DNA of 64,000 nt, taken from NCBI GenBank assembly GCA_018667335.1, contig JABIVD010000051.1, positions 1-64,000 on the forward strand, given 5' to 3'. The stretch's first letter is position 1, and every line of letters starts with the position of its first letter. This document shows positions 6,135 to 8,990 of this stretch, piece after piece. Both the position numbers and the translations under genes were made by a program. This DNA is from Rhodospirillaceae bacterium (GTDB taxonomy: Bacteria; Pseudomonadota; Alphaproteobacteria; UBA6615). A model generated the notes under the pieces. The model saw only the letters and a program-made list of their open reading frames with translations, was not told the DNA's origin and ran no database searches.

Positions 6135-6464
6135 TCAGGAGCGGTCCTGGCTCATCTTGTTCATGTGGCGGGGACCATGATCGTCATCGTCATCGTCATT
6201 GTGGCCCCGGCCGCTATGGTCCGATCCCGGTGCGGAATGACGTTCGTGCTTGCCTTTGCCGGCATACTCTTCGTCGTGTCGCGTCCCGGGATGTCGTTCG
6301 TCGTCGTCATGCATGCGCGCCTGCATTTCGGTTTGCATGTCCGCGTGCGGGCTGGACATGTGCTGGCCTTTCATGCGCTGGCCGTTCATTCCGGAACCGT
6401 CTGCGAGAGCTGCACCGGATACGAGCAAAGCAGCCAGTGCGGCGGTTGAGAGAAGGGTTTTCAT
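6135..6464 (-). CDS. Small exported His/Asp/Met-rich protein
   Basis: A 109-residue protein of no recognised family. Residues 1-21 form a clear Sec signal peptide ending in AALA, so the mature protein should be periplasmic. The mature part is low-complexity: eleven His, a six-residue Asp run, many Met, and no Cys. This composition suggests divalent-metal buffering, which is inference. The DNA encoding the Asp run is a GTC/ATC trinucleotide repeat near 6179-6200. A strong ribosome-binding site (AGGAGA on the minus strand) lies about 7 bases before the ATG, and AT-rich sequence upstream (6481-6520) probably holds the promoter. Confidence 0.68.
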   Translation of the reverse strand: MKTLLSTAALAALLVSGAALADGSGMNGQRMKGQHMSSPHADMQTEMQARMHDDDERHPGTRHDEEYAGKGKHERHSAPGSDHSGRGHNDDDDDDHGPRHMNKMSQDRS

Positions 6465-6766
6465 CGCGTGTCTCCTGTTTGTGTATAAGACAAATATAAT
6501 ATTAGAGACTTCTGATTAAAGGGGGTGCGGCAGAACATCGCGTACTTAACCCGGGCGCGGCTTCGGCGTATGTGTTCTCCCCATGAGCGGTTCTTCCGGT
6601 GCCTGATCAGCCGCCATGTGCGGTCGTCACGAGAGCGTGAAAGATATTTATCGCGCCTGCTGCCTTCCGTACTCTAATAGGCAAGTCGAATTGCATTTTT
6701 TCGTAGCGCGTGTGAATTGGCGTTTTGGGCCGGGCGCGCAACCGCGAATATGGTTGAGAGGGCGAC
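6465..6766. other. Intergenic region with promoter-like AT stretch and dusA remnant
   Basis: This 302-base gap separates two divergently transcribed genes. From 6481 to 6520 it is AT-rich, with several TATA-like hexamers that could serve the minus-strand His/Asp-rich gene. From about 6537 to 6623 it contains a degraded copy of the dusA leader and 5' coding region (annotated separately). The remainder, 6678-6766, is the leader of the Tat-signal gene, with a run of six T at 6697-6702 and a GAGAGGG ribosome-binding site just before ATG 6767. Confidence 0.6.
6570..6677 (+). pseudogene. In-frame remnant of the dusA 5' end
   Basis: 6582-6623 matches 8046-8087 inside dusA at 39 of 42 positions; the peptide reads HERFFRCLISRHVR against HERFFLRLISRHVR. 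The leader is also related: ATCGCGT-(A)-CTTAAC at 6537-6550 matches 7930-7942, and CGTATGTxTTC matches the dusA start region at 7959-7969. Relative to dusA, 72 bases (24 codons) are missing between the start codon and the conserved block, leaving the frame open: ATG 6570 reads 35 codons to TAA 6675-6677. The last 17 codons have no clear dusA counterpart. It is most simply a decayed partial duplication; whether the short frame is translated is unknown. Confidence 0.62.
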
Positions 6767-7255
6767 ATGAGTACTGATGCACTGACACGCAGGACCGTGC
6801 TTGCAGCCGGCGTCGCTGCCGCGATGATCGGCGCGTCCGGACTGCTCGTGCCTGCACGTGCCCGGGGGCTTGCGCCGACGTCGTCAATGCGCGGCGGGTC
6901 CAACAATTATCTCCCCGGCGCGCCAATTGTGGAGCGGATCGGCGGCGGGGGATTCTGGATGTCGGGCACCGTGCGCCGCGCGGATGATGGCGTTCCAATC
7001 GAAGGCCAACGGATTCAGATCTGGGCCCACACGACCGAAGGACGTGAACGTGACCCGCACAGCCACGGCGCGACACTGACGGACGCAACCGGGACGTTCC
7101 GCCTGGAAATGCCACAGATCGTGCCGACCTTCGGCCAACCCCATGGTCACCTCGCCTATGACGGCGGAGATTTCGAAACCGTGTTCCTGCGTCCGGTCAT
7201 GCGGAGTGCGGAGGAAACCAGTCTCCGCGCGGACTTTGTGCTGCGCCCGGTCTGA
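6767..7255 (+). CDS. Tat-exported intradiol-dioxygenase-like beta-sandwich protein
   Basis: A 162-residue protein with a twin-arginine signal (TRRTVLAAG at 7-15 followed by a hydrophobic, Ala-rich core), so it is probably folded in the cytoplasm and exported. The mature part resembles the catalytic core of intradiol ring-cleavage dioxygenases: GVPIEGQRIQIW, ATLTDATGTFRLEM, and an H-x-H motif in QPHGHLAY. In true enzymes of this family Fe(III) is bound by two Tyr and two His. By eye the two Tyr positions are not Tyr here (TEGRERDPH and VPTFGQPH), so dioxygenase activity is doubtful. It is separated by five bases from the membrane heme-protein gene downstream and probably works with it. Confidence 0.72.
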   Translation: MSTDALTRRTVLAAGVAAAMIGASGLLVPARARGLAPTSSMRGGSNNYLPGAPIVERIGGGGFWMSGTVRRADDGVPIEGQRIQIWAHTTEGRERDPHSHGATLTDATGTFRLEMPQIVPTFGQPHGHLAYDGGDFETVFLRPVMRSAEETSLRADFVLRPV

Positions 7256-7260
7256 CTCCA

Positions 7261-7893
7261 ATGAATGAACCCGGAAGGCGGCGCATACCCCAGTTGGTGA
7301 TCTGGGCCGCGCTTCTGGTCGCCATCGTTGCCCCGATTGCCGCCACGGCATTCAGTCCGCAACTCGCCTGGCGCGATCCGATCTACATCGGGTCCGGATT
7401 CGCCGGGGTTATCGCGATGGCACTCCTGCTGCTTCAGCCTCTGCTCGCGGGGGGATACTTGCCCGACCTGTCTGTGCCTCAGCGTCGCCGCGCGCATCGC
7501 TGGATCGGAACCGGCCTGGTGGCAGCCGTCGTTTTGCACGTCGGCGGTCTCTGGATCACGAGCCCGCCCGACGTTCTGGATGCACTTTTGTTTCGTGCGC
7601 CGACCTTCTTCTCCGCCTGGGGCGTTGTCGCCATGTGGGCGGTCTTCGGCGCGGCACTTCTCGCGCTCCTGCTGCGACGGCTTGGCTGGCGATGGTGGGC
7701 GTGGCGCCTTGCACATACGTCTCTCGCAGCCATCATCGTGGTCGGCAGCGTCGTTCATGCCCTGTTGATCGAGGGGACGATGGAGACGATCACCAAAGTG
7801 CTGCTCTGCGCACTCGTCCTCGCGGTGACGGCGAAGGTCCTGATCGATCTGCGGGTCTGGACGACCCAGACCCGTCGGAAGACAAAAGCCTAG
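7261..7893 (+). CDS. Ferric-reductase-like transmembrane cytochrome b protein
   Basis: A 210-residue integral membrane protein with about six hydrophobic segments. Two His pairs, His79/His93 and His152/His166, each 14 residues apart on predicted helices, match the bis-heme b arrangement of the ferric-reductase/NOX/MsrQ membrane domain. No cytosolic flavin or NADPH domain is attached, so electrons would come from another protein or the quinone pool. It lies five bases after the Tat-exported protein gene. The layout recalls MsrP-MsrQ, in which a Tat-exported enzyme is paired with a heme-binding membrane subunit, but the partner here is unrelated to MsrP. The pairing function is inference. Confidence 0.75.
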   Translation: MNEPGRRRIPQLVIWAALLVAIVAPIAATAFSPQLAWRDPIYIGSGFAGVIAMALLLLQPLLAGGYLPDLSVPQRRRAHRWIGTGLVAAVVLHVGGLWITSPPDVLDALLFRAPTFFSAWGVVAMWAVFGAALLALLLRRLGWRWWAWRLAHTSLAAIIVVGSVVHALLIEGTMETITKVLLCALVLAVTAKVLIDLRVWTTQTRRKTKA

Positions 7894-7961: not shown

Positions 7962-8990
7962 ATGTCTTCGTTAGTCATGTCCGAAATAAAGACATATGGC
8001 CCGGCACCCCTGTCCGTGGCGCCGATGATGGACTGGACGGACCGCCATGAGCGGTTCTTCCTGCGCCTGATCAGCCGCCACGTGCGGCTCTACACCGAGA
8101 TGGTCACCACCGGCGCGATCCTGCACGGCCCGCGCGAGAGGCTGCTCGCCTTCGACCCGGCAGAACACCCCGTGGCGCTGCAGCTGGGCGGGTCTGACCC
8201 GGCGGCGCTGGCCGAATGCGCCCGGATCGGCGCCGATCTCGGTTATGACGAGATCAATCTCAACGTCGGTTGCCCGTCCGACCGCGTGCAGTCGGGGCGG
8301 TTCGGCGCCTGTCTGATGGCGGAGCCGGATCTCGTGGCCGAGAGCGTCTCTGCGATGCGCGAAGCCGTCGACGTGCCGGTGACCGTCAAACATCGGATCG
8401 CGATCGACGACCAGCCCGAATGGGACACGCTGATTGATTTCGTCGACCGGGTCGCGGCTGCGGGGTGTGAGCGCTTCATCGTCCATGCCCGCAAGGCGTG
8501 GCTCGAAGGCCTGAGCCCGCGCGAAAATCGCGAGGTGCCACCGCTGCATTACGACCTCGTCTATCGGCTGAAGGCCGAACGGCCTGATTTGCACGTCACG
8601 ATCAATGGCGGGATCGAAGACCTGGATGCGGCCACCAACCATCTTCGCCATGTGGACGGTGTGATGCTGGGTCGAGCGGCCTATCAGAACCCCTATGTGC
8701 TGGCGGAGGCGGATCAGCGGTTTTTCGGCGATCCGTCAGACGTACAGAGCCGCCACGACGTGATCGAGGCCTATTGCGACTATATCGAGCGGGAGATCGC
8801 CGCCGGCCGCCATCTCGTCGGGATCACGCGGCATATCCTGGGTCTCTTTAACGGATTGCGCGGGGCGCGGGCCTGGCGCCGCTATCTCTCGGAGAATGCG
8901 CCCGGGTTCGACGGGACACCTGCAGAGGCGACCGCGTTGGTCCGCGAGGCTGCACGTTTTGTCGAGGATGACCGCCGCGTCGCGGCCTAG
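7962..8990 (+). CDS. dusA: tRNA-dihydrouridine(20/20a) synthase DusA
   Basis: An FMN-dependent reductase that makes dihydrouridine in the tRNA D-loop. The product is about 340 residues. The N-terminal SVAPMMDWTDRH motif, the catalytic Cys in NVGCPSDRVQSG, the FMN-binding VTVKHRIAID strand, and the HARKAWLEGLSPREN segment identify the DusA subgroup. ATG 7962 and ATG 7977 are both in frame; neither has a good ribosome-binding site. The conserved protein begins just after 7977, but the remnant at 6570 retains an ATG at the position equivalent to 7962. The open frame extending upstream to 7635 overlaps the membrane-protein gene and is not real. The stop codon lies in one copy of a 14-bp tandem repeat. 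Confidence 0.93.
   Translation: MSSLVMSEIKTYGPAPLSVAPMMDWTDRHERFFLRLISRHVRLYTEMVTTGAILHGPRERLLAFDPAEHPVALQLGGSDPAALAECARIGADLGYDEINLNVGCPSDRVQSGRFGACLMAEPDLVAESVSAMREAVDVPVTVKHRIAIDDQPEWDTLIDFVDRVAAAGCERFIVHARKAWLEGLSPRENREVPPLHYDLVYRLKAERPDLHVTINGGIEDLDAATNHLRHVDGVMLGRAAYQNPYVLAEADQRFFGDPSDVQSRHDVIEAYCDYIEREIAAGRHLVGITRHILGLFNGLRGARAWRRYLSENAPGFDGTPAEATALVREAARFVEDDRRVAA

Follow-up and report, generated by a model that had tools for sequence, protein, structure and literature searches.

Probable periplasm-facing redox pair of Alphaproteobacteria: a Tat-exported protein of predicted intradiol-dioxygenase fold and a bis-heme membrane protein

Two adjacent genes of a Rhodospirillaceae bacterium (assembly GCA_018667335.1), here called A and B, co-occur without exception, so their products probably form one electron-transfer enzyme. 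This enzyme is probably an undescribed one located at the cell surface; no description of the pair was found in the openly licensed literature that we searched, and other papers may hold one. The window, i.e. the whole stretch of DNA analysed here, comprises positions 1-64,000 of the forward strand of contig JABIVD010000051.1. A previous reading of these letters (the sequence-only reading) had proposed that two ORFs in the window encode a periplasmic redox pair. Both ORFs lie exactly where it had placed them, and its interpretation of them as a redox pair is partly supported by what follows. The two genes are:

6767..7255, + strand: gene A, an ORF of 162 aa encoding a Tat-exported, degenerate intradiol-dioxygenase-fold protein with 111 distinct homologues
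7261..7893, + strand: gene B, an ORF of 210 aa encoding a six-helix, bis-heme ferric-reductase-domain (FRD) membrane protein

They are separated by 5 bases. The only annotations that these genes carry at present are 'twin-arginine translocation pathway signal' and 'ferric reductase-like'; some copies of the pair are plasmid-borne.

We scanned approximately 85,000 genome records for A and took the best 80 of 431 related stretches. In all of these best 80, B was found directly downstream of A on the same strand wherever the contig continued. Same-strand adjacency held at 129 of the 133 A loci fetched; two of the other four are contig ends, and the remaining two are the same locus of one genome with a frameshifted copy, fetched twice. 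The arrangement spans alphaproteobacterial orders. In a class sample of 385 genomes, A and B were present at full strength in an identical set of genomes (11/11; Fisher p 2e-21, relatedness ignored), and the same was seen in a phylum sample of 398 genomes (20/20; Fisher p 4e-34, relatedness ignored). Every genome with the pair in these two samples belongs to the Alphaproteobacteria. The conserved adjacency outside this strain, on which the sequence-only reading had staked its case, proved universal, with identical genome sets. Clustering of neighbours over 80 loci gave no third conserved operon gene outside close relatives, so that A and B look self-sufficient. Family scores fell sharply from E ~1e-65 to ~1e-4 at ordinary Tat-exported dioxygenases, marking A as a tight and isolated family, and the correlation between the A and B distance matrices was modest (r = 0.39). 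There is good support for A and B forming a unit.

The pair was also found in culturable Paracoccus denitrificans, Ruegeria, Bradyrhizobium and Roseibium, and is thus directly testable. A few copies are possibly decaying or mis-sequenced: frameshifts disrupt both A and B in one genome (G021; loci L008 and L010), and in another (G710) B carries an in-frame TGA. One weak match (G065, L009) turned out to be a multicopper oxidase and was judged a chance similarity around the signal peptide.

Export of A is indicated by its N-terminus:

6767..6862, + strand: Tat signal peptide, A residues 1-32 (TRRTVL, conserved P-A-x-A), identified from homologue conservation and Pfam TAT_signal

The Tat motif reads TRRTVLAAG and is followed by P-A-R-A, with a cleavage region at P29-A30-x-A32. 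R8 and R9 of the motif are present in about 105 of 107 homologues, and Pfam TAT_signal matches 14 of 55. A is sub-threshold for Pfam Dioxygenase_C (14 bits, cut-off 27.3), and profile-profile comparison (hhalign) with 17 genuine alphaproteobacterial dioxygenases gave a match at 95.6% (E 1.3e-8). A predicted model of A, built from 55 homologues, was of moderate quality (pLDDT 77, pTM 0.70), with residues 90-92, near Glu94 and His100, below a pLDDT of 50. Its best fold matches were intradiol dioxygenases, namely 9yh9 (Z 13.5, rmsd 2.9, 133 aligned) and then 4ilv (Z 13.3); transthyretin-like and carboxypeptidase-regulatory domains scored Z <=10. Searching solved structures with the A sequence returned no relevant match. 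By the predicted model and the profiles, A is an intradiol-dioxygenase beta-sandwich. The dioxygenase core and H-x-H motif seen by the sequence-only reading are thus borne out by fold match, profile comparison and the His126/His128 pair.

The metal site of such a fold appears to have been rebuilt in A. We aligned A with the 17 genuine dioxygenases in three MAFFT modes, with identical outcome, and the following positions stood out:

7046..7048, + strand: Glu94, at the first Tyr iron ligand position (17/17 dioxygenases have Tyr, 111/111 A homologues have Glu)
7064..7066, + strand: His100, a new invariant His and candidate ligand (111/111 A; not conserved in dioxygenases)
7136..7138, + strand: Gln124, invariant by the alignment and homologues, adjoining Gly123 (position of the lost catalytic Arg)
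7142..7150, + strand: His126-x-His128, the retained His ligand pair, aligning with the HxH of 17/17 dioxygenases (111/111 A)

The second Tyr ligand position (Tyr in 17/17 dioxygenases) is Val119 in the window's A, and Val or Ile among its homologues. The active-site Arg that precedes HxH in 17/17 dioxygenases is replaced by Gly123, followed by Gln124. Both Tyr ligands had been read by eye as replaced, the second by Phe; both are indeed absent, and Glu94 does take the first position, but the second is held by Val119 and not by Phe122, an aromatic residue three positions further on that is kept in 110/111 A sequences. A structural alignment might have put two Tyr ligands back in place, as that reading had allowed for; no Tyr of A aligns with either ligand position. 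Through a bridge dioxygenase, L106, which can be aligned with protocatechuate 3,4-dioxygenase beta (E ~1e-20), the positions in A are tied to the crystallographic iron ligands Tyr408, Tyr447, His460 and His462.

Six residues (Glu94, His100, Gln117, Gln124, His126, His128) never varied in 111 distinct A sequences. With both Tyr ligands lost and the new set invariant, the alignments indicate that the classical Fe(III) Tyr/Tyr/His/His site is missing from A and that a 2-His/1-Glu set is fixed instead, with a third His (His100) close in sequence. Glu94, His100, His126 and His128 may bind one metal, in a probable site of 2-3 His and 1 Glu. A four-His site that includes His88 was also considered. 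His88 is kept in 106/110 A sequences, and the idea is weakened by its replacement with Ala in divergent Rhodobacteraceae members, and with Asn once. Two divergent members (L142 and L143, genomes G673 and G697) combine His88 to Ala with Glu91 to Leu and keep Glu94, His100, His126 and His128; these natural variants are useful for defining the candidate metal site.

That A is without obvious intradiol ring-cleaving chemistry is well supported by the sequences, as had been suspected earlier. A different ring chemistry could be imagined, in which A acts in the periplasm as an oxygenase of aromatic (catechol-like) compounds through a 2-His-1-carboxylate Fe(II) site resembling that of extradiol enzymes, with B serving only to re-reduce inactivated iron or to supply electrons. 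The fold, the HxH pair and the Trp86 strand are kept in A, its NNYxPGAP segment resembles (by eye) the GPxYxxGAP loop of catechol dioxygenase, and Glu94 completes a 2-His-1-Glu set. We nevertheless regard such an oxygenase as quite improbable: intradiol chemistry is defined by the Tyr ligands, the pocket of A has lost the conserved Arg and Thr-Gln motif of dioxygenases, and aromatic-degradation genes do not recur near the pair. The disappearance of the classical ligands, together with the low Pfam score, would also suit an A that has no catalytic function left and serves B in a non-redox role, either structural or in assembly. This is very unlikely given that Glu94, His100, Gln124, His126 and His128 are invariant in all 111 sequences. 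Moreover, mean column identity was higher for A (79%) than for B (60%), which argues against A being a decayed pseudo-enzyme.

The features of B point to a transmembrane heme protein:

7495..7539, + strand: His79 and His93 (TM3), the first axial His for each heme (108/108 homologues)
7558..7608, + strand: periplasmic loop TM3-TM4, residues 100-116, B's most conserved segment and a candidate docking site for A
7714..7758, + strand: His152 and His166 (TM5), the second axial His for each heme (107/107 and 106/106)

His79/His93 and His152/His166 are each spaced 14 apart (two H-x13-H pairs), and no flavin or NAD domain was found in B; the spacing and the missing flavin domain agree with the sequence-only reading. 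The window's B scored 26.9 bits against Pfam Ferric_reduct (PF01794), just below the 28-bit cut-off, and the same family matched 48/49 B homologues at E <=0.01 (best 1.1e-11). The predicted model of B (pLDDT 92) has six helices and matched cytochrome b561 and NOX membrane domains with Z ~14-17, a range to be read with caution as helical bundles give high Z in general. Solved structures searched by sequence gave weak cytochrome b6 matches only. An NCBIfam search with B matched no family and no MsrQ model, insofar as NCBIfam includes one. Judged by its bis-heme signature, B is a member of the FRD superfamily. By the positive-inside charge rule both termini are cytoplasmic, so that the heme on the periplasmic side would be ligated by His93/His166. 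The most conserved parts of B are its periplasmic loops (TSPPDVxDxLLF, SPxLxWR and EGTMET), with mean column entropies of 0.44-0.82 bits compared with ~0.9-1.5 for most helices; the lowest value, 0.44 bits, belongs to the TM3-TM4 loop. Such conservation would be expected of a docking face for A.

The pair is best read as an FRD-based transmembrane redox module with a repurposed dioxygenase-fold partner. We see it as an evenly balanced proposition that A and B are two subunits of one periplasm-facing redox enzyme in which A is a rebuilt metalloprotein served by B. For this enzyme we infer metal binding by A, docking of A on B, electron transfer with its direction, and a type of substrate. B would carry electrons across the membrane through two b hemes and be linked to quinone or to the cytosol. 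A would be exported folded with its cofactor via Tat, an MsrPQ-like division of labour, and would dock on the conserved periplasmic loops of B. Electrons would pass from B across the membrane to A, the reverse direction (A to B) being less likely. In the pocket of A, Glu94, His126 and His128, probably joined by His100, would stand in for the Fe(III) Tyr/Tyr/His/His set and make up a site of 2-3 His and 1 Glu like those of Fe(II), Mn or Cu enzymes. With the Tyr/Tyr/His/His set replaced, A may not perform classical intradiol cleavage but use supplied electrons for redox chemistry, acting on O2, a reactive oxygen species or a periplasmic substrate. A broader claim is doubtful at present, namely that the intradiol-dioxygenase fold has passed from a self-sufficient Fe(III)-Tyr ring cleaver to a 3-His/1-Glu enzyme driven by a dedicated bis-heme FRD subunit, and that this defines a new class of periplasmic oxidoreductase.

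Alternatively, B might reduce ferric or cupric ions so that the metal can be taken up or detoxified, with A as a periplasmic metal-binding or metal-presenting non-enzyme. FRD relatives do include metal reductases, e.g. STEAP and b561 folds, and a Rhodovulum plasmid copy of the pair adjoins TonB/ExbBD and ChuX-type heme genes. However, the iron-gene context is not recurrent, and Tat export with near-absolute conservation of a pocket-like motif fits an active-site protein better, making a metal reductase unlikely in our view.

We compared the proposed two-subunit enzyme with known systems. MsrPQ (YedYZ) is likewise a two-gene module of a Tat-exported soluble catalytic subunit and an FRD-type six-helix heme membrane subunit, and the earlier description of an MsrPQ-like architecture with an unrelated partner is well supported. 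The partners differ in fold (intradiol dioxygenase in A, molybdenum sulfite oxidase in MsrP). B has all four heme His, of which two or three are reportedly retained in YedZ-type short forms (PMC3591440). MsrP homologues were present in 16/16 genomes with the pair that we tested, 15 of them above the curated cut-off, and are located elsewhere in these genomes. The pair is therefore not MsrPQ, and a role as its substitute is ruled out by this coexistence. The MsrP gene of the window's organism (G000:C62:72532-73485) shows one in-frame TAG in its match and may be a pseudogene or reflect a sequencing error. In MsrQ-like flavinylated extracytosolic electron-transfer systems, too, an extracytosolic redox protein is supplied by an FRD membrane protein, but their clusters are defined by ApbE/FMN-binding genes (PMC8238504), while no gene of any kind recurs beside A and B; judging by its neighbours, the pair does not belong to these ApbE/FMN-linked systems. 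The membrane reductases of the NOX, STEAP and cytochrome b561 groups share with B the fold and the bis-heme His arrangement, whereas B has no NAD(P)H/flavin domain and is paired with a periplasmic protein dedicated to it. A shares the fold and HxH pair with the intradiol dioxygenases (protocatechuate 3,4-dioxygenase, catechol 1,2-dioxygenase), but their two Tyr ligands, Arg and Thr-Gln motif are missing from it; its Glu94-His100 loop is shortened, and it is exported by Tat and has an obligate heme partner. If true, the proposed enzyme would provide a second kind of catalytic partner for FRD/MsrQ-type membrane electron carriers, most bacterial members of which are uncharacterised, and would show how an intradiol-dioxygenase metal site can be rewired.

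Upstream of the pair we found an operator-like palindrome:

6627..6640, + strand: TCACGAGAGCGTGA, ~130-140 bases upstream of A (TCACG-N4-CGTGA)

TCACG-N4-CGTGA occurred with at least 9/10 positions matched in 40/83 upstream regions versus 2/415 shuffles, mostly 120-150 bases upstream of A and in about half of the loci. Exact copies of TCACGANNNCGTGA number only two in the window's genome, and the exact palindrome is nearly unique to the pair in each genome, which suggests that TCACGAAACCGTGA upstream of A is the site of a dedicated regulator, the signal for which is not indicated. The second exact copy in the window's genome (G000:C52:244-257; L124) is located where the gene for an ABC-transporter substrate-binding protein begins; two further genomes of the genus have this site too (L125, L126). 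A palindrome regulon was discarded as a functional clue, the other sites being this transporter gene within the genus and unrelated genes elsewhere. Neither regulation nor the neighbours of the pair gave a hint of the substrate.

Two further observations concern the surroundings of the locus. The product of a divergent gene (6135-6464, - strand) is small, secreted and highly enriched in His, Asp and Met, a possible periplasmic metal binder that was not found at other loci of the pair. In the window strain, the operon is also bracketed by a 43-base direct repeat (93%; 6581-6623 and 8045-8087), with no integrase left between the copies. The repeat is the 5' coding part of a tRNA-dihydrouridine synthase gene, of which relatives carry the downstream copy only, and the repeat pair resembles the footprint left by dusA-targeted integration.
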